Below, in pieces: positions 20,012-28,200 of a stretch of 53,257 bases of DNA (position 1 is the first letter of the stretch; each line of letters starts with the position of its first letter). Origin of the DNA: Domibacillus indicus (lineage in GTDB: Bacteria > Bacillota > Bacilli > Bacillales > Domibacillaceae); contig NZ_JAMBOO010000029.1 in NCBI RefSeq assembly GCF_023715895.1, positions 1-53,257 of the forward strand. The letters run 5' to 3'. The position numbers were made by a program, and so were the translations under genes. The notes below the pieces were generated by a model. It did not search any database. It was not told where the DNA came from and saw nothing but the letters and a program-made list of their open reading frames with translations.

Positions 20012-20042
20012 GAGCAATTGCCAGTTCTGCTGACAATTGCTC
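20012..20042 (-). terminator. terminator of the gas vesicle operon
   Basis: GAGCAATTG (20012-20020) pairs with CAATTGCTC (20034-20042), and on the minus strand TTATTTTTT follows. It lies just past gvpU, the last gene of the operon. Confidence 0.88.
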
Positions 20043-20055
20043 ACTCTTTCTTTCC

Positions 20056-20457
20056 TTATCTTTCTTTGTCACTGCTATCGAATATTTTTCCTAAAAAGAA
20101 GCCGTCTATTTCACTTAGTTTTCCCCGCCAGAGAATTTTTCCTTTTGAAGGAGTAGGCTTGCTGTCGCCGCAGTAGACCTTTGTGTCTTTCATATGAAGA
20201 AAATGTGCTTCTGTATCGTTCGTGCGCGACGCTTCTCCGGCTTTTTCAAGCTGGTCACTGACCATTTGTGCCGTTTCGTTTCCACCTTCAAAAGTTTCAC
20301 TCAGCATGTGGAAATATTCTTGTGCAGATACCAGTGTACCTGTGATCACAGCACCTTTTACATTTAACGTAATATCTAAGGAGAAATCGTCTTTGTTTGC
20401 CGCTTCGACAAAAAACTCAAGAATACTATCTTTGGCTGCACTCGAACTGCTGCTCAT
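20056..20457 (-). CDS. gvpU: gas vesicle protein GvpU
   Basis: A 133-residue protein of the GvpU family, with the body carrying NVKGAVITGTLVSAQEYF and the terminal KIFDSS. It is the last gene of the cluster, as in Bacillus (Priestia) megaterium. It starts 1 nt after the gvpT stop (TAAT-ATG), with AAAGGAG upstream, so translation is probably coupled. GvpU in B. megaterium has been linked to vesicle clustering and phase behaviour rather than shell building. The assignment rests on size, sequence feel and position. Confidence 0.82.
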   Translation of the reverse strand: MSSSSSAAKDSILEFFVEAANKDDFSLDITLNVKGAVITGTLVSAQEYFHMLSETFEGGNETAQMVSDQLEKAGEASRTNDTEAHFLHMKDTKVYCGDSKPTPSKGKILWRGKLSEIDGFFLGKIFDSSDKER

Positions 20458-20458
20458 A

Positions 20459-22252
20459 TTACGTCTCCTTTCTCATCTCATTTAAAAGAAGGTACGTGTC
20501 TTCTACTTTTTCCTCTACTTTCTCATTGGAAAGAACATTATAATAGGTTGCTTTCTTTTCGTTGTTTGAATCGCTGGACAGTGATACTGCTTCCTTGCTA
20601 TTTTGCTTCTTTGATTGATCATCTTTTTCGATATCATTCTTTTTTACATCATTACTGCTCTCATTCTTTTCTTTATCTTTTTGATCCTGTTTTGGCGTTT
20701 CATTTTCATTATCATTCTCCTGCTTTTCTTCCTGACCTTCTGTTTTGCTATCCTTTTCCTGGTCTTGGTCCTTAGATGGATCTTTTACTTTTTCTTTTCC
20801 TGCTTCATTCTTATTCTTCTCATCAAGTTCCTCGTTTTCTTTCTGATTCTCATCCGAATTCGGCTTTTCTCCGCTATCTACTTGATTTTTTCCAGCGTCT
20901 TGAGAATCTTCTTTTTTATCTTCATCCTTCTGTTTATCTTGTTCTGCCTCTTCATTTTTCTTTTCATTCTCGTCTTTGTCATTGTCATCGCTTGTCTTTT
21001 GATCTTCTTCTAGAGGCTGCTTTTCTTCGTTATTTATTTGACTTTTTTTTTCAGCGTCCTCAGAACTTTCGTCATTTTCTTTTTTATCCTGCTCTTGCGT
21101 TTGAACTTCTTCATCATTTTTTCTTTTATCCGGCTCATCGTCGTTTTGGTTAGAATCTGCTGCTTGGTTCTTATCTTTTTCTCCAAGCATTTTTGTAAGC
21201 ATTTCTTCTATTTTACCTAGACGGTCCTGCAGCTTTTCATTTTCTTCCTTTAATGCCTCATATTCCTTGTTCGCTGATTTTTCATCTGACTCTGATGGTT
21301 CCTCTTTACTGTTTTTCTGAGATTCTTCCGATTTTAATTGTACCTCTTCATCATTTTTTTCATTACCATCTGGTTGAGCTGGTTGTTCTTCGCCAGCCTC
21401 TTTATCTTTTGATTCGGGTTGTGCTGTATCATCATTCTCTTTGTTTCCTAGTTGCTCTTTCGATTCTTTTTTATTTTCTTCGCCTGCTTGCTCTGTCTTC
21501 GGTTCCTTTTTATTTTCTTGATCGTCCTGCTGAGCTTTTGATTCTTCCTTATCCTCTTCGTTTTCTACTTGAGATTGGCCCTCTTCGTTATTTAAAGGCT
21601 CTTGCAAATATGATGATGAGCCTCCGTCGTTATCCGACTCTTTCGATTTTGGCTGCTCACTTTTACTGCTTTCCTGTTTTGGTGAATCTTCTTTTTCATT
21701 CTTTCCTTCATTTGATGCTGTGGTTGATTCAGTTTCCTCACTCGAACCACTTTTATTTTGCGTTTTGTCCCCTTCCTGGCCGTTTTTTGTTTCTATAAAT
21801 TTTGTCAGCATTTCTTCCAGCCGGTCTAACCGATCATTGAAATCGCTGCTTTCTTGATTGGATGTTTGCTCATTTTTGCCAGTAGACTTATGATCGGTCT
21901 CTAGTGTGAGGCTTGTCTCATTTCCGCTGTTCTGTTCTCCTTCATCATTCGCATACCCTTCTACTGAAACATCTTCTTTTTTGTCCAGAACCTTTCCAGC
22001 TGAGTGTTTAATAGAAGCCACTGCTTTTTTTGATCTTTCTTTCATTGCCTGGCCCAAGCCGGAGCCTGTGCTCTTTAACTTATCCCGACTTGCGTTTTCC
22101 AGCAGTTTCTTTCCATTCTCGGGTGTAGCCATATAACCGACGGCCGCGCCAATTAATCCTCCTGCAAGAGAACGTCTAAGTGAGCTGCTATTTGAGCTGT
22201 TCTCGTTTTTTGTTTCCTGGGTCTGCTTTTCCGTTTCTTTTGCTTTTTCCAT
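20459..22252 (-). CDS. gvpT: gas vesicle protein GvpT, greatly expanded
   Basis: The protein has 597 residues. It begins with a Ser-rich stretch and a YtxH-like glycine-zipper segment (residues ~27-45, LAGGLIGAAVGYMATPENGK). Then comes RLDRLEEMLTKF (141-152), a first Glu/Lys/Asn/Ser-rich disordered stretch, a second related coil (331-357, YEALKEENEKLQDRL followed by EEMLTKML), a second extremely charged stretch (~358-555) and a conserved-looking tail with TYYNVLSNEKVEEKVEDTYL. As I recall, GvpT of B. megaterium is about half this length, so the extra mass is low-complexity linker. GGAGG precedes the ATG. The position between gvpJ and gvpU confirms identity. It is likely a peripheral or tethering factor, not a shell protein. 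Confidence 0.8.
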   Translation of the reverse strand: MEKAKETEKQTQETKNENSSNSSSLRRSLAGGLIGAAVGYMATPENGKKLLENASRDKLKSTGSGLGQAMKERSKKAVASIKHSAGKVLDKKEDVSVEGYANDEGEQNSGNETSLTLETDHKSTGKNEQTSNQESSDFNDRLDRLEEMLTKFIETKNGQEGDKTQNKSGSSEETESTTASNEGKNEKEDSPKQESSKSEQPKSKESDNDGGSSSYLQEPLNNEEGQSQVENEEDKEESKAQQDDQENKKEPKTEQAGEENKKESKEQLGNKENDDTAQPESKDKEAGEEQPAQPDGNEKNDEEVQLKSEESQKNSKEEPSESDEKSANKEYEALKEENEKLQDRLGKIEEMLTKMLGEKDKNQAADSNQNDDEPDKRKNDEEVQTQEQDKKENDESSEDAEKKSQINNEEKQPLEEDQKTSDDNDKDENEKKNEEAEQDKQKDEDKKEDSQDAGKNQVDSGEKPNSDENQKENEELDEKNKNEAGKEKVKDPSKDQDQEKDSKTEGQEEKQENDNENETPKQDQKDKEKNESSNDVKKNDIEKDDQSKKQNSKEAVSLSSDSNNEKKATYYNVLSNEKVEEKVEDTYLLLNEMRKET

Positions 22253-22267
22253 GATAGAACCTCCTGC

Positions 22268-22600
22268 TTAGTAGTTGAATTCTTTAGCATCAATGCGATT
22301 TGTAGATATCTTCTTTTCCAGAGATTCGAGCCTCTCATGAAGTCTTTTATTTTCTTCTTCAAGCGCTTTCGTATGATGATCGGCTGCTTTTGATGTCAAA
22401 TACGGATCGGTTTCCCACCAGTCCATGCCGATTTCTTTTGCTTTATCAACAGAAGCGACAATCAGGCGTATTTTGATGGTTAACAACTCAACATCCGCAA
22501 TACCGACCGTAATATCTCCTGCGATTACAACACCTTTATCTAATATTTTTTCCAATACATCCACGATCGTACTGGATTGCATGGAATGTTCGACTGCCAT
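22268..22600 (-). CDS. gvpJ: gas vesicle protein GvpJ (GvpA-family nucleation protein)
   Basis: The protein has 110 residues. Residues 10-60 are a GvpA/J fold (TIVDVLEKILDKGVVIAGD, then VGIADVELLTIKIRLIVASVD), more divergent than GvpA/B, and WWETDPYLT follows. Residues 78-98 form a coiled-coil tail (ALEEENKRLHERLESLEKK) absent from GvpA. GvpJ is a minor shell or tip protein thought to act in nucleation with GvpF/L, G, K and S. It lies 24 nt after gvpK and 15 nt before gvpT. The tail closely resembles coils in GvpP and GvpT of this same cluster. Confidence 0.92.
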   Translation of the reverse strand: MAVEHSMQSSTIVDVLEKILDKGVVIAGDITVGIADVELLTIKIRLIVASVDKAKEIGMDWWETDPYLTSKAADHHTKALEEENKRLHERLESLEKKISTNRIDAKEFNY

Positions 22601-22624
22601 GTATAGTCCTCCTCGGCATTTTAA

Positions 22625-22909
22625 TTAAAGTAAACTTCCTAAAGGACCAAGATCGATATTTAAATCATCCGCCTCCAAGCCGAAAATTTCTTTTAATTCT
22701 TCCATTTTTTCTTCCAGGTTCATCAGAGCTTCTCCTAAATTTTCGATTTGCTCATCCGTCAGCGTGCCGCCTTCTACCCTTCTAATCGCATGTCTTTCTA
22801 CGATTTGTCTTAACAGCTCAATGACCGTTAGCACTAACTGCGCCAACCCATGCTCTGCATTGTCAGGGTCTAAGTTAATTTTTCCATTTGTCTGGCTGGC
22901 CGGTTGCAT
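22625..22909 (-). CDS. gvpK: gas vesicle protein GvpK
   Basis: The protein has 94 residues from the ATG at 22909, which has GGAGG nine nt upstream. The same frame extends to 22984 without a site. The core is INLDPDNAEHGLAQLVLTVIELLRQ, then HAIRRVEGGTLTDEQIENLGEAL, a near-textbook GvpK. The start lies 35 nt inside the end of gvpS, indicating translational coupling. GvpK is an essential assembly factor of the nucleation complex. Confidence 0.93.
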   Translation of the reverse strand: MQPASQTNGKINLDPDNAEHGLAQLVLTVIELLRQIVERHAIRRVEGGTLTDEQIENLGEALMNLEEKMEELKEIFGLEADDLNIDLGPLGSLL

Positions 22910-23150
22910 GAGTGAGATCCTCCCTCTGTTTATCAAATTGTACGGAAGAGATGGTTTTGCCGTTTTCCTGCTGAGCTTGAACAAGCGATTCTACCGAAGC
23001 AATAAGTACTCTTAAATCCAGATAAACCAAGTCAACTCCTGCTATGGAGATGACTAAATCTGCTTTTATCGCCACTCCCTTGTCCAGGATGACATCCAAA
23101 ATATCAATTAAAGCAATATCCTTGTTCTCGATCGATTCCTTTAGTGACAT
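22875..23150 (-). CDS. gvpS: gas vesicle protein GvpS (GvpA/J/M family)
   Basis: The protein has 91 residues. The GvpA-like core (LIDILDVILDKGVAIKADL, then SIAGVDLVYLDLRVLIASVES) fills residues ~14-60. The tail is short and polar. It overlaps gvpK at its 3' end. It is a minor A-family member needed for nucleation in the B. megaterium system. Identity rests on the divergence pattern and on the position between gvpL and gvpK. Confidence 0.9.
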   Translation of the reverse strand: MSLKESIENKDIALIDILDVILDKGVAIKADLVISIAGVDLVYLDLRVLIASVESLVQAQQENGKTISSVQFDKQREDLTHATGQPDKWKN

Positions 23151-23165
23151 TGTTCTCTTCCTTCT

Positions 23166-23972
23166 TTATGAAAAGCTAGAAAAGTGATAGGCCGGCCAGG
23201 GCCCAGATGCTTGAAACTGCCAGCCTTTTTCCTTCATATCCTTTTCATATTGTTGAATTTGTTTTAAAAAATCTTCGACTTTCGATTTGGAAATGAGGTA
23301 TACACCATTCCATGTCATCTCCTCCTGCCTTCCAGTCACTTCGCTGCTCCACGTTCTTTTTACGTTTCCTCGAACGGCAAACTCACTTAGGCGGGAATGA
23401 ATGTGTTCACTTACTTTGTTTTTTTCTTCTTCGAGCTCGGACGCAATGACCTTGTCCAATTTTTTCTTTTCAAAAAATTGCTTTCCTCTTGGCAATTGAC
23501 TGATTTCCGCTCTTTTTGCTTCTATAGTTGGGTTATTCTCGCTTACTTCCTTTTTTAATTGTTCGTCTTCACAATAAATTTTTACATTCCATTCTTCTTT
23601 TCCAGTGATAAAAGCAAACGTATCGAGCATTTTGCCTTCGTTTGACTGAACAGCCGCTTTCAAGCTGTCTTCGTTTTTGTACAATGTACAAAACTTCAAT
23701 GGAATTAAGGTATACATTTTTGCGAGCTTCATAACTGTTTCATGATGGTGAAAGGCTTTTTCCTGAAGCCATTCCATATCATTATTAATCCGGTCTTTAA
23801 TGATTTCTTCTGCGTATTCTTCAGTGTCTAAGCTGCACACAATAGCCGTCAGCTTTCCGATCGGAACGGTATATAAATCTTCTGTATGATCAAAACCTTT
23901 CAAAGACGGAAGCGGCTGGCTGGCTGCTTCCTCCGTTTGAGCCAATCCATACAAATAAATTAGACGATCCAT
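23166..23972 (-). CDS. gvpL: gas vesicle protein GvpL (GvpL/GvpF family)
   Basis: The protein has 268 residues. The GvpL/F signatures are an N-terminal beta sheet domain opening DRLIYLYGLAQ, AIVCSLDTEEYAEE, HHETVMKLAKMYTLIPLKFCTLY, the WNVKIYCE strand, and the terminal ASGPWPAYHFSSF, the classic GPWPPY-type ending. GvpL and GvpF bind GvpA monomers and are accessory assembly factors. It starts 14 nt after gvpG ends. Confidence 0.93.
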   Translation of the reverse strand: MDRLIYLYGLAQTEEAASQPLPSLKGFDHTEDLYTVPIGKLTAIVCSLDTEEYAEEIIKDRINNDMEWLQEKAFHHHETVMKLAKMYTLIPLKFCTLYKNEDSLKAAVQSNEGKMLDTFAFITGKEEWNVKIYCEDEQLKKEVSENNPTIEAKRAEISQLPRGKQFFEKKKLDKVIASELEEEKNKVSEHIHSRLSEFAVRGNVKRTWSSEVTGRQEEMTWNGVYLISKSKVEDFLKQIQQYEKDMKEKGWQFQASGPWPAYHFSSFS

Positions 23973-23985
23973 GTTCTTACTGCCC

Positions 23986-24240
23986 TCATTTCTTCTTTGT
24001 CATCTGCTCCCATTGTTCCATTTCCATTCGTTTGGCCATTTCATACCGTATAATCAGTTCTTCTTCTTTCGCTTTGTAAGCTTCTTCTGGAATTTCCCCA
24101 AGCTCGTACATCATCTGCAGCTGAATGAGCTTTTGCTGAATGGTAGGCAAGTCGTACAGCTCTTTATCTGCTTCTTCTTTTACCTTTTCTCCAATTTTGA
24201 TGACAAGGTTGATCGGCGCAGAAATCAGCTTGTGCAGCAT
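23986..24240 (-). CDS. gvpG: gas vesicle protein GvpG
   Basis: An 84-residue helical protein: LHKLISAPINLVIKIGEK, then DLPTIQQKLIQLQMMYELGEIPEEAY and a basic end. The ATG overlaps the gvpF stop by one base (TAATG), the hallmark of coupled translation, and gvpL follows at 14 nt. GvpG is a small obligate assembly partner of GvpF/L. Confidence 0.93.
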   Translation of the reverse strand: MLHKLISAPINLVIKIGEKVKEEADKELYDLPTIQQKLIQLQMMYELGEIPEEAYKAKEEELIIRYEMAKRMEMEQWEQMTKKK

Positions 24241-25007
24241 TAGGCATCCTCAACTTTTAATCTAATATTGACGAAGTTATAAGCCGGCCACGGACCGCTG
24301 TAGTTGAATTCGACTCGATCCTCCCATTGGTCGTGCAGCTCATTTACTTTCTGGTCAAATGCCGCTTCTTTTTCACGATCTACTAGAAATGCTGCATTTA
24401 GAAGCATCTTCTCTCCGATCGGATCATTCACTTTTGATGCTTCTGCCAGCTCCTTTAAAGGATGGAAGATATCCTGTTCTGTCTCTTTTTGCAAAGATGT
24501 CACGAGTTTTTGGGCGGCTCCCCCCAGCTGAATTCGTTCATAATAGCTAGCTGCTTCTGATTTCCCTTTTACTGCCTGAGCCATTTTTTCTATGCTGGCA
24601 TCCTCGCTCACTTTTGATTCAAGCCATTCTTTTTTGCCGATGACTTTCAAACCGAGTTCTACCTTTCCCTTTATTTCCGGGAAAAGCTTTTCAAATTGCG
24701 GATATAAATTTTCTAAAAGCACGCCGACATCTTCTTTTGAATGAAAAACATTTCCGAAACTAACCGGTATCACAGTGTCATTTTTCTTCATCACAAGAGA
24801 AACCGCCTGCTGGTGCATCATCAAATTATCTTTGTTCGGATGGTAAATTTTCATCGGCACCTCCGCAGCTACCATGGCTGCATCTTTGAACCGGATGGTG
24901 AACAGCTCTCTTTTTTCTTCTTCCATCTCTATTTCACCGAAGCTTTCATCTGCTTCCATTTGAATTCCGCAAAAAATATAAATTCCCATTGATTCTTCCT
25001 GGCTCAT
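24240..25007 (-). CDS. gvpF: gas vesicle protein GvpF (GvpL/GvpF family)
   Basis: The protein has 255 residues. It shares with GvpL the opening IYIFCGIQME, VIPVSFGNVFHSKEDV, GLKVIGKKEW and the C-terminal YSGPWPAYNFVNIRL. It is the first of the two GvpF/L proteins, lying 14 nt after gvpN and overlapping gvpG by one base. GvpF is thought to bind GvpA and be incorporated early in vesicle growth. Confidence 0.93.
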   Translation of the reverse strand: MSQEESMGIYIFCGIQMEADESFGEIEMEEEKRELFTIRFKDAAMVAAEVPMKIYHPNKDNLMMHQQAVSLVMKKNDTVIPVSFGNVFHSKEDVGVLLENLYPQFEKLFPEIKGKVELGLKVIGKKEWLESKVSEDASIEKMAQAVKGKSEAASYYERIQLGGAAQKLVTSLQKETEQDIFHPLKELAEASKVNDPIGEKMLLNAAFLVDREKEAAFDQKVNELHDQWEDRVEFNYSGPWPAYNFVNIRLKVEDA

Positions 25008-25021
25008 TGTAAAACGCTCCT

Positions 25022-25942
25022 TTATTCCTCAGTAACTTTCATATTGTGACACGCGTGTATCACTAATTCTTCTGCTGCTTTCATTGGGTTATCCGATTTG
25101 ATGCACCGACTCATTTGATGCGCTAATACGTCAAGACATAAACGCTGAAAAGCAGCGTTTGACCCGTCTACTGGAATCTCTTCTTCCGCCACTATCCTGG
25201 CAATCATTAATGAAGCGCGCAGGCTTGGTCCGTTGTCCGCTTCGCATTCTTCGCGTAACTGGGCAACAAGAGCGGTAATGGCTGCCGCCTTCTCCTGAGC
25301 GATATCGATCTTTTCCGAAATGATGGCTGCTTCTTGATCGTGTTCTTTATGGTCAATAAAAATGGTAATCAGGCGATCAAGCAATGCTTCTTGTGTTTGA
25401 TAGACTCCTGCATATTCCTCAGGATTGCTGGTGAAAATGACAGCAAAATCAGGATGAACCCGAACAAAGGGTTCTGTTAATTTTGTTCCGTACAAAGGAA
25501 GGATTCCTTCTTCTAAAATAGACAAAAAGATATTGTTAGTGGCTGGCTTCGAACGGGTAAACTCATCGTAAACAAGTGTGTAGCCATTCTTTACGGCTTC
25601 CAGCAGCCGCCCGTCTCTCCATGTTTCTGTTACGCTTTCGTCTCTTTTGTATACAGAACGAACGTAATTATCGACTACTTTTTTACTCGTGTAGCCAGTA
25701 AAGTCACCAATTAAATCTTTATTGTTTAATTCATGGTTGCCATGGATCAGCATGACGGGTTTTTTTCTTTTCTTTGCCAGAGCGAGCGCCAGCGAGGTTT
25801 TTCCAGTTCCAGACGGGCCTGTTAAGTGAATAGGGTAGCCCGCTTTTAAATATTGCAGCGAGCGGGAAAGCAAGTCTTCTGTCTCTGGATCATGGACAAT
25901 CTCTTTTGAATTTTTATTGATCTTGTTTTTTAAGACGGTCAC
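25022..25942 (-). CDS. gvpN: gas vesicle AAA+ ATPase GvpN (MoxR-like)
   Basis: The protein has 306 residues. Walker A is LTGPSGTGKTSLALALAKK (about residue 40), Walker B is GYTLVYDEFTRS, sensor 1 is AVIFTSNPEEYAG, and the arginine finger region is EALLDRLITIF. This is the MoxR-type AAA+ remodeller of gas vesicle clusters, essential for expanding bicones to cylinders in several systems. It follows gvpR by 24 nt. Confidence 0.94.
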   Translation of the reverse strand: MTVLKNKINKNSKEIVHDPETEDLLSRSLQYLKAGYPIHLTGPSGTGKTSLALALAKKRKKPVMLIHGNHELNNKDLIGDFTGYTSKKVVDNYVRSVYKRDESVTETWRDGRLLEAVKNGYTLVYDEFTRSKPATNNIFLSILEEGILPLYGTKLTEPFVRVHPDFAVIFTSNPEEYAGVYQTQEALLDRLITIFIDHKEHDQEAAIISEKIDIAQEKAAAITALVAQLREECEADNGPSLRASLMIARIVAEEEIPVDGSNAAFQRLCLDVLAHQMSRCIKSDNPMKAAEELVIHACHNMKVTEE

Positions 25943-25966
25943 TCTTTTTCCTCCTACTCCCGCGTC

Positions 25967-26230
25967 CTATGCTTCATAATTAATTGAACTTCTATACCGA
26001 ATATCTCGTCGTTTATAAGAAGCTACTTCCTTCTCTTCACTTAATAAAACCTCGTATACACCGATCATTTCGTCTTTTGCGTACTTTTTCATATATTCTT
26101 TTTCTTCAATTACTTCCACGGTCAGCTGCCAGCCATTATCGTTTTTTTCTACGGAAGTAATTTTGTGAACTGGAGCTACGAATTCGTTAAAGAACTCTGT
26201 AACATTCCCAATAATTTGTTTAATTTCCAT
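25967..26230 (-). CDS. gvpR: gas vesicle protein GvpR (GvpO-like)
   Basis: The protein has 87 residues. The compact GvpO-type domain reads WQLTVEVIEEKEYM, then GVYEVLLSEEKEVASYKRRDIRYR. It corresponds to GvpR of B. megaterium by position (after gvpB, before gvpN). In haloarchaea and Streptomyces the related GvpO is an essential accessory of unclear role. GGAGG precedes the ATG. Confidence 0.88.
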   Translation of the reverse strand: MEIKQIIGNVTEFFNEFVAPVHKITSVEKNDNGWQLTVEVIEEKEYMKKYAKDEMIGVYEVLLSEEKEVASYKRRDIRYRSSINYEA

Positions 26231-26292
26231 TATGTCCTCCTGCTAAAGAATGACAGGCCAGGGCTTCCTGCACCCTGGCTCTGCTTTCTTTA

Positions 26293-26553
26293 TTAAATGC
26301 TAAACCGTGCATTTCTTTCATTGGATTGAGCAAGCAGCCCATTTTCTTCAACGTTATCTCCAAGCAATCCGACAGCCTCCGCATAACGCAGCCATGTATC
26401 GACACTGGCAATGACCACCCGGGCTTCCACCGTTAAAATTTCAATTCCGACTACTGATACTCTTACAAAAGCATCGATGACAATCCCTTTATCTAAAATC
26501 CGGTCAATAACCTCTGCTAAACTAGAACTATCTGTACTTTTTTGAACAGCCAT
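26293..26553 (-). CDS. gvpB: major gas vesicle shell protein GvpB (second GvpA copy)
   Basis: The protein has 86 residues. The GvpA core ([49 protein letters not shown]) differs from gvpA of this cluster by only two residues over the first ~63, while the codons carry many synonymous changes. Only the last ~20 residues diverge. The strict protein conservation shows selection on the ribbed shell. In B. megaterium GvpB likewise is the functional main shell protein. AAAGGAG precedes the ATG. Confidence 0.96.
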
Positions 26554-26579
26554 AATTACTTTCTCCTTTCGTGATGATA

Positions 26580-26981
26580 TTAAGAACCGATTGTTTTAAT
26601 ATCATTGGAAGATTTTATGTTTTTTGCACGTTTGATTTTAGTAGCACTCTTAATATCCTTGGATGTTTTAATATCACTGATTCCCTTAATATGCTTAACG
26701 CCTTTTACTTTTCGGTCATCGTCTTTTTTATTGACTGAAGACATTTTCTTTTGAAATTCTTGTCCAGCTTCCACTGCTTTTCCCAGCTTTTCACGGGCTG
26801 ACAGCAGGACCTCCTGGACTTTTTCTTCTGCCTCTCCTGCTTTTTCATGGATGTTTTCTTTAAATCTCTCTTTTGCTTTGTCGACGATGACTTCTTTCAC
26901 TTTCTCTTTCACTGGCTCCGGAGCGTGTTTGATCGCGCTTTTTGCCACTTTACCAGCCGCTTTTTTCACGCGCTTGTCCAT
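26580..26981 (-). CDS. gvpQ: gas vesicle protein GvpQ with C-terminal hexapeptide repeat
   Basis: A 133-residue, very basic protein. Residues 1-80 are amphipathic helices ([40 protein letters not shown]). Residues 91-132 are seven consecutive six-residue units with [IV]-K at positions 2-3 ([36 protein letters not shown], preceded by KVKGVK). Position after gvpP gives the name. B. megaterium GvpQ is dispensable for vesicles and its role is unknown. The repeat makes this copy worth a look. Confidence 0.78.
26586..26711 (-). repeat. seven in-frame 18-bp units encoding the GvpQ hexapeptide repeat
   Basis: On the minus strand this segment encodes seven x-[IV]-K-x-x-x units in tandem. The codons vary between units, so the repeat is visible mainly at protein level and is not a fresh duplication. 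Confidence 0.75.
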
Positions 26982-27018
26982 CTCATCACCCCCTCCGGAT
27001 TCCTTTCAAAAGAACTTC

Positions 27019-27561
27019 TTATTTCTGCGTGCCTGCCAGGTCGTTCAGCATTTTTTCCATTTTTTGAAGCCGCTCATTGAGCTCTTTGTTTTCTTCTTTG
27101 ATTTTTTCATACGCTGGAGACTGGGTTTCCTTTTCTGAACTGCCTGTTCCTTTGTTCTCCCCACTTTCCTTTAGGGGAGATAGCAGCTTTCCATCAATTT
27201 TGCTGATATATCCTTCAGCTAATTGTCTGATGCTGTTTTGTGCCTGGCCGGCCAGGAGTTCCTGTGCGGTTTTCCTAAATTCCTTTTCCGCTACCTTTAC
27301 AAATTCAGAATCACCTAAGTTTTTCATCAGTTTTTTGCCGGTATCCGGATTGGCGAGCAATCCTATTCCGGCCCCTACTACGCCGCCCAGTATAGCCAGA
27401 TTGATCGAATAGTTAGGGCTGTCTTTTGTTTCTGCCGACTGCTTTTCATCCTTCGTCTGGCTGCTTTCTTCCTGGTTTACCTCTTCTTTTTGCGTACTGT
27501 TTTCGGCTGCTTCCTGGTTTTGATTTCCTTCTTGTTTTTCATTGGCTTCTTGGGTATTCAT
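27019..27561 (-). CDS. gvpP: gas vesicle protein GvpP (YtxH-like, coiled-coil)
   Basis: The protein has 180 residues. An acidic Gln/Glu-rich head (1-48) precedes a glycine-zipper hydrophobic segment (about 52-72, LAILGGVVGAGIGLLANPD, then GKKLMKNL) as in YtxH proteins. Residues 148-175 are a coiled coil (YEKIKEENKELNERLQKMEKML). It follows gvpA, as in B. megaterium. N-terminal zipper and C-terminal coil are both shared with GvpT of the cluster, suggesting common descent. Likely peripheral, linking vesicle to membrane or to other vesicles (inference). Confidence 0.82.
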   Translation of the reverse strand: MNTQEANEKQEGNQNQEAAENSTQKEEVNQEESSQTKDEKQSAETKDSPNYSINLAILGGVVGAGIGLLANPDTGKKLMKNLGDSEFVKVAEKEFRKTAQELLAGQAQNSIRQLAEGYISKIDGKLLSPLKESGENKGTGSSEKETQSPAYEKIKEENKELNERLQKMEKMLNDLAGTQK

Positions 27562-27612
27562 CCTCTTAACCTCTTCTCTTGATAGATTTCTTCTATGGCT
27601 TTTTTTTATACT

Positions 27613-27873
27613 TTAGTAACTTAACCGTGATGTCTGAGATTGGTTTTGATATGCAAGGCTTTCCGTTTCAGCTTCATCACTTAATAATCCAACCGCTTCT
27701 GCGTATCTTAGCCATGTATCCACACTGGCAATAACGACTCTGGCTTCGACTGTAAGAATTTCTATACCTACGAGTGATACTCTTACAAAAGCATCAATAA
27801 CAATTCCTTTGTCGAGAATTCGGTCAATGACTTCTGCCAGACTTGAACTATCTGTGCTTTTTTGAACACTCAT
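27613..27873 (-). CDS. gvpA: gas vesicle shell protein GvpA
   Basis: The protein has 86 residues from the ATG at 27873, which has GGAGA eight nt upstream. A longer frame to 28011 reads through the leader and is not used. The core [49 protein letters not shown] is the ribbed-shell fold. The last ~20 residues are polar and specific. It is the first gene of the 14-gene operon. Confidence 0.96.
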
Positions 27874-27945
27874 ACTTTGTCTCCTCTCTGCTTTTGACAT
27901 ATTGGGAGGTTGTTGAGCTATTTTATTTTTAGGTTTAGTCTGTAC

Positions 27946-27970
27946 ATACCTTTCCTCTCCATGAGTAAAC
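27946..27970 (-). promoter_or_regulatory. candidate sigma-B-type promoter of the gvp operon
   Basis: On the minus strand GTTTAC (27965-27970), 13 nt, then AGGTAT (27946-27951) match the sigma-B pattern GTTTAA-N12-14-GGGTAT with one mismatch per box. Transcription would start about 65 nt before gvpA. The -35 box lies inside a CCATG/CATGG inverted repeat (27959-27974). No comparable sigma-A promoter was seen nearer the gene. A start under general stress control is an inference. Confidence 0.5.
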
Positions 27971-28134
27971 ATGGTTTTTATAGGAATTAGGAACTGTTTT
28001 ATTAAATTCATTAAATATTTGTATTTAATGGATATATTATGAAAAACGTAATTTATGATAAATGCAATAAATAGCGAAGGATTTGTGTGCTTTGATCAGG
28101 TATGGTTTTGTTGAAGATATATATCTAAAAAAAA

Positions 28135-28172
28135 GGGCCCTAAACAAACAGAGATCTGTTTGTTTAGGGCCC
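28135..28172 (-). terminator. strong bidirectional terminator of the siderophore uptake operon
   Basis: An 18-bp perfect stem (GGGCCCTAAACAAACAGA and its complement, 2-nt centre) is flanked by A and T runs. It is located about 80 nt past the permease stop, shielding the gvp promoter from read-through. Confidence 0.93.
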
Positions 28173-28200
28173 TTTTTACATATGTTTCTTTTTTATCACC

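Follow-up and report, generated by a model that had tools for sequence, protein, structure and literature searches.

How would a soil bacillus use gas vesicles, and what would switch on the genes that make them? The question is raised by the gas vesicle (gvp) operon of Domibacillus indicus, found on a 53,257-nt stretch of DNA (RefSeq assembly GCF_023715895.1, contig NZ_JAMBOO010000029.1, positions 1 to 53,257; hereafter the window). The operon is real and ordinary, of the Bacillus (Priestia) megaterium type. The new part is regulatory and is the part worth acting on: a conserved sigma-B-like promoter element upstream of gvpA. On the sequence evidence, it is likely that the operon is functional and transcribed as a unit from a sigma-B-class promoter that lies about 97 nt upstream of gvpA, so that gas vesicles would be switched on by general stress.

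The element matches 10 of the 12 bases of GTTTAA-N12-15-GGGTAT, the sigma-B consensus of B. subtilis.

27946..27970, minus strand: sigma-B-like promoter element, GTTTAC-N13-AGGTAT, 97 nt before the gvpA ATG

Alignment of the regions upstream of gvpA showed two short conserved words within diverged DNA, the hexamers being kept between species while the spacer varies. To 13 operons collected earlier we added 40 gvp regions, spread over genus labels and taken from 113 genomes, which gave 53 operons. Twenty-nine of these carry two GvpA/B-type genes, and 26 remained after removal of L005, L006 and L056, near-copies of the window's operon (each with 10 of 12 bases). In 20 of the 26, an element with at least 10 of 12 bases precedes gvpA, always at -126 to -88, and these 20 operons cover at least 10 genus labels. 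None of the 26 has the element upstream of gvpB. Dinucleotide shuffles reach the same score in 9.6% of cases anywhere within 300 nt and in 1.7% within -126 to -88, and among 313 natural upstream regions (from 400 kb of chromosome of the same species) 24 reach it anywhere and 3 in the interval. Consensuses for sigma-A, -H, -D, -F, -W and -E/K were found in 0 or 1 of the 26 gvpA upstream regions. For 200 letter-permuted consensus pairs, the maximum was 6 of 26.

The sigma factor itself was sought in 400 kb of a same-species genome (G006, two contigs), in a region predicted from the gene order of B. subtilis. A 264-aa sigma factor found there scores 436.9 bits with the NCBIfam SigB model (TIGR02941), whose cut-off is 315. 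It stands in a row of genes whose products measure 386-93-116-275-120-131-336-109-154-SigB-199 aa. The row reads as the known order alr-ndoAI-ndoA-rsbRSTUVW-sigB-rsbX; apart from sigB, the names were assigned by eye on the basis of gene order, size and N-terminal residues, and the genes are therefore called rsb-like. The rsbV-like gene (109 aa) has GTTTAA-N14-GGGTAT, 12 of 12 bases, 80 nt upstream, a positive control from the same species. The window element shares with such Bacillus sigma-B promoters the two hexamers and a spacing within 12-15, and differs from that of the rsbV-like gene at 2 of 12 bases; its dependence on sigma-B is predicted from this likeness.

Under this reading, general stress or energy limitation would lead sigma-B RNA polymerase to start near 27939 and to switch on the whole gvp operon. 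GvpB and GvpA would form the shell, GvpS, GvpK and GvpJ would seed it and link GvpL to the shell protein, GvpF and GvpG would act as chaperones, GvpN with the help of GvpR would drive elongation, and GvpU and GvpT would cluster the vesicles. Comparable roles are proposed in PMC11445434 for B. megaterium vesicles made in Escherichia coli: seeding by S, K and J, chaperoning of shell protein by F and possibly G, elongation by N with R as a possible helper, and clustering by U and, less so, T. The clustering effect of GvpU could not be confirmed in PMC11223475. The benefit may be flotation towards air in wet soil or in a film at energy shortage, or another stress use; a stress use other than flotation had been raised in the first-pass annotation and gains support from the sigma-B-like promoter. 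Because the promoter is conserved, the role of gas vesicles in soil bacilli can be tested directly with standard stresses and a sigB deletion. A stress promoter could also explain why ordinary cultures seldom show vesicles.

Several observations weigh against sigma-B control. Six of the 26 operons (L007, L162, L167, L168, L176 and L193) score 9, and in L167 the site is also misplaced, at -198. L007 reads GTTTAG-N13-AGGTAA at -100, and in genus label g48 the sequence is GTTTGA-N12-AAGTAT for both operons. In operons where a single A/B-type gene was found, which is often not the first of the operon, the element precedes that gene in 1 of 24 cases; in gvpP-first operons, 2 of 7 reach 10 bases, at -50 and -191. 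The interval -126 to -88 was picked after the hits were seen, and the 26 operons share descent. The sigB evidence comes from G006, a different assembly from that of the window (G000). Finally, the gas vesicle genes of Jeotgalibacillus malaysiensis go down, not up, under long salt stress (PMC5027565), which speaks against a simple salt-stress role. Those of Streptomyces coelicolor, likewise a soil organism, are reported up under salt stress (cited in PMC5027565); this organism belongs to another phylum.

Conservation of the hexamers alone does not identify the factor that reads them. The gvp operon could run from an ordinary housekeeping promoter, with the conserved element as a site for another regulator, and the GTTTAG...CTAAAC-like inverted pattern seen by eye in some species points that way. 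We consider this unlikely, because our promoter scan of the minus strand listed nothing sigma-A-like ahead of gvpA, the sigma-A consensus occurs at -126 to -88 in 0 of the 26 operons, and both hexamers with their 12-15 spacing fit sigma-B, like the element of the rsbV-like gene. Less probable still is an operon that is intact yet silent or decaying, retained by chance and making no vesicles. In its favour, intact gvpA has been lost in two relatives, and B. megaterium vesicles produced in E. coli do not require gvpA, P, Q, R, T or U, although joint loss of GvpR, T and U gives narrower vesicles (PMC11223475). On the other side, 14 of 14 frames are open, the order, terminators and promoter element are conserved, and in comparisons with eight relatives from other genera GvpB, N, F, G, L, S, K and J show 67-97% identity. 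Stress-induced transcription from the sigma-B-like promoter is the reading that we prefer.

In our literature search, which used 'sigma B' in one spelling and covered mostly open papers, no Bacillus gvp operon was found placed under sigma-B. The excerpts of PMC11223475 and PMC11445434 on the B. megaterium operon do not mention such a promoter, and in those of PMC2374992, on a Streptomyces cluster, 'sigma B' occurs in the reference list only. The search returned no paper that joins gas vesicles with Domibacillus.

The operon runs on the minus strand from 27873 to 20056. Its 14 frames are all open, without internal stops, and two intrinsic terminators flank it.

28132..28175, minus strand: intrinsic terminator in the gap between a fecCD-type gene and the operon (20-pair stem, T run)
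27613..27873, minus strand: gvpA, shell protein paralogue (Pfam GvpA-type, NCBIfam GvpA)
27019..27561, minus strand: gvpP, GvpT/GvpP family (NF041669 above cut-off)
26580..26981, minus strand: gvpQ (NF041670 above cut-off)
26293..26553, minus strand: gvpB (GvpA2), expected main shell protein (family profiles, PDB 7r1c)
25967..26230, minus strand: gvpR, GvpO family (PF05800 above cut-off)
25022..25942, minus strand: gvpN, AAA ATPase, GTG start (TIGR02640 above cut-off)
24240..25007, minus strand: gvpF (PF06386)
23986..24240, minus strand: gvpG (PF05120)
23166..23972, minus strand: gvpL (PF06386)
22875..23150, minus strand: gvpS (PF00741)
22625..22909, minus strand: gvpK, overlapping gvpS by 35 nt (PF05121)
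22268..22600, minus strand: gvpJ, coiled-coil-like C-terminal tail (Pfam GvpA-type; tail profile)
20459..22252, minus strand: gvpT, 597 aa, long acidic low-complexity region (NCBIfam GvpT/P)
20056..20457, minus strand: gvpU (NF041667, E 7e-53)
20012..20042, minus strand: operon terminator behind gvpU (13-pair stem, T-rich tail)

The spacings from gvpA to gvpU are 51, 37, 26, 62, 24, 14, -1, 13, 15, -35, 24, 15 and 1 nt, with extremes at the gvpS/gvpK overlap (-35) and between gvpB and gvpR (+62), and a plausible ribosome site was seen by eye before each frame. The first-pass annotation is borne out in describing 14 intact minus-strand genes with gaps or overlaps below about 70 nt in the order known from B. 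megaterium. Its single terminator at the downstream end also stands, and the upstream one is now added. The operon edge that it placed at 27970 does not hold; it falls on an upstream in-frame ATG (27972-27970), exactly where the promoter element begins. The most likely gvpA start is 27873, because an AGAGGAG ribosome site lies in front of it.

Pfam and NCBIfam together cover all 14 Gvp proteins. Pfam recognizes A, B, S and J (GvpA-type), R (GvpO), F and L (GvpL/F), GvpG, GvpK and N (AAA), and NCBIfam models score above cut-off for A and B (GvpA), P and T (GvpT/P family), GvpQ, GvpN and GvpU. GvpR is named via GvpO, and GvpS and GvpJ are recognized, above cut-off, only as GvpA-type. GvpP and GvpT miss the Pfam YtxH cut-off of 37.5 bits, with 22.2 and 23.1 bits, and a Pfam Tad5 match of GvpQ (20.7, below the cut-off of 27) was taken as chance. 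The genome has four GvpA-type places, all inside the operon. GvpA and GvpB are 80% identical over 85 residues, and the solved shell proteins that GvpB matches in the PDB are 7r1c (E 7.5e-39) and 8gbs. The match to 7r1c and the gvpS/gvpK overlap are further likenesses to the B. megaterium operon (gvpAPQBRNFGLSKJTU; pNL29), which has the same genes in the same order. The pNL29 part is as given in PMC11223475 and PMC11445434. The set found essential in PMC11223475 (shell A/B, N, F, G, L, S, K and J) is intact in the window.

Gas vesicles had been called rare in soil bacilli, and many of their clusters partial. This view does not survive the comparison with relatives. Of 397 genomes drawn from the order (by order, not by habitat), 112 have GvpK above cut-off, so the operon is not rare there, and so do 5 of the 13 Domibacillus genomes. 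GvpU passes its cut-off in 94 of the 397, a count that includes some stray copies outside gvp operons. Among 11 relatives fetched by GvpU, nine have all 14 genes in the same order. The two without intact gvpA are B. aerolatus, which retains a match to the first 17 codons, and B. wudalianchiensis. Three relatives (two Cytobacillus oceanisediminis and M. lacus) have an extra gvpT-like gene, and in one of these three gvpT is broken by masked bases. The closest named loci are those of Domibacillus sp. PGB-M46 (GvpU 99% identical) and D. robiginosus (98%). The flanking proteins, a fecCD-type permease and an alpha-amylase-family enzyme, have 91-99% matches in G006, G009 and G010. The 20-kb locus of D. 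epiphyticus matches the window DNA in pieces of more than 300 bases within the operon only. Spread by plasmids was considered and rejected, since among 72,556 plasmid records just 5 match the operon DNA, and only over short stretches at gvpA, gvpB or gvpJ. Phage origin was likewise set aside: GvpN has matches in 4 of 50,697 phage records, at 26-27% identity, annotated as hypothetical or CobS.

The end of GvpJ, KALEEENKRLHERLESLEKK, resembles IKEENKELNERLQKMEKML of GvpP and LKEENEKLQDRLGKIEEML of GvpT. When a profile built from 12 GvpJ tails was searched against the 2,243 frames of the collected loci, the matches at E < 0.1 were 13 GvpJ frames (one, in L056, unlabelled), 8 of 12 labelled GvpP frames, two GvpT frames and an unlabelled 180-aa frame of GvpP size in L056. 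In a whole 5.08-Mb genome, with 10 of the 12 tails used, GvpJ is followed by GvpP (0.014) and GvpT (0.15), and an unrelated place comes next, at 2.2. Shuffles that keep the heptads reach the real mean in 2 of 1,200 cases for GvpP, a clear result, and in 53 of 1,200 for GvpT, a weak one; the core is present in 12 of 16 GvpT frames. GvpJ, GvpP and, more weakly, GvpT thus appear to have a coiled-coil-like segment in common. From the similar tails we conjecture a docking point for accessory proteins that are used in gas vesicle engineering. The interactions of GvpT with G and J in PMC11445434 fit the likeness of the GvpJ and GvpT tails. We found no paper that has GvpJ, GvpT and 'coiled' together.

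GvpT, at 597 aa, is within the range of its relatives, whose main copies measure 378 to 803 aa, leaving aside the masked one. Residues 151-560 are 32% D+E and 18% K+R, and the N-terminal part and an NVLSDxxDTYLL-like end are conserved, as judged by eye. The GvpT of Cytobacillus oceanisediminis 15_TX (L008:7587-9998) contains, by eye, some twelve SQSQSEGEGNNER-like units in tandem, and slippage of these repeats may therefore change its length.

A broader joint claim places the gas vesicles of Bacillus relatives in the sigma-B general stress regulon, as a stress or stationary-phase organelle of soil bacilli and not an aquatic relic, and puts the operon of this Domibacillus group on a large second replicon. 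We put it forward tentatively, at somewhat less than an even chance. In G006 the operon is on contig C1 (1,711,846 bases), not C2 (3,390,870 bases), and the window corresponds to about 746-802 kb of C1, reckoned from one alignment. On C2, DnaA is matched strongly at 84 kb and weakly at 1.10 Mb, and a ParA-type gene lies at 92 kb. ParA-type places number five on C2 and two on C1, both near 0.61 Mb. Full 16S genes are found ten times on each contig, with one further fragment on C1. In samples of GC skew, the sign switches on C1 near 0.615 Mb and again between 1.40 and 1.45 Mb; on C2 it does so between 1.78 and 1.87 Mb and at some point below 0.17 Mb. Samples that misfit or are flat lie at 100 and 500 kb of C1 and at 1.53 and 2.72 Mb of C2, and the strand of long frames disagrees at, among others, 100 kb, 200 kb, 1.05 and 1.65 Mb of C1 and 170 kb and 1.53 Mb of C2.

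At 0.607-0.617 Mb, C1 encodes two ParA proteins, one about 78% identical to a Planococcus plasmid ParA, and a 331-aa helix-turn-helix (Rep-like) protein with relatives of less than 60% identity in 62 plasmid records, 55 of them from Priestia. Counterparts at 92-98% occur in G000, G009 and G010, in the last on the 126-kb contig that carries gvp. C1 may therefore be a 1.7-Mb second replicon (chromid) that carries the gvp operon and ten rRNA operons, in keeping with the larger genomes of the nearest kin (G000, G006, G009 and G010, 4.7-5.1 Mb; the other nine of the genus, 2.1-3.8 Mb). The joint claim is weakened because relatives of the Rep-like protein occur in 12 of 13 genus genomes and several C1 strand samples misfit. 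The exact start of each contig is an rRNA operon, which leaves room for a mis-split or a cointegrate, and the assembly needs checking. The literature search gave no paper joining Domibacillus with 'megaplasmid', nor 'chromid' with Bacillaceae and 'rRNA operon'. Positions 1-104 of the window are a contig end inside a 16S rRNA gene, in agreement with an rRNA operon near 800 kb of C1.

GvpU has no sequence relatives in the PDB at E <= 0.1. One AlphaFold2 model has a mean pLDDT of 81.6 and the other four 33-40; the first matches nothing in the PDB at E <= 0.001 (the highest-probability rows are Sm/LSm, at E 0.06 or worse) and one unnamed entry of a viral library (E 8.6e-4, rmsd 10.7), and none of this was used as evidence. 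GvpU matches the phage family phrog_14356 (E 3e-14), and two Pseudomonas phages among the 50,697 phage records have a GvpU-like relative among hypothetical genes, at 29-30% identity. The window's own genome has a GvpU-like gene in a prophage head module (G000:C169:43872-44255; L051:4858-5301), where it is flanked by the gene of a minor head protein on one side and, on the other, by a 262-aa frame close to that of the major head protein. Viral contigs scanned with this prophage protein gave no relative. In the order-wide scan, GvpK was not matched in the genomes of L053, L055, L057 and L058. Stray GvpU-like genes outside gvp operons stand, by eye, beside transporter-like frames in L052-L055 and among unrelated genes in L057 and L058.

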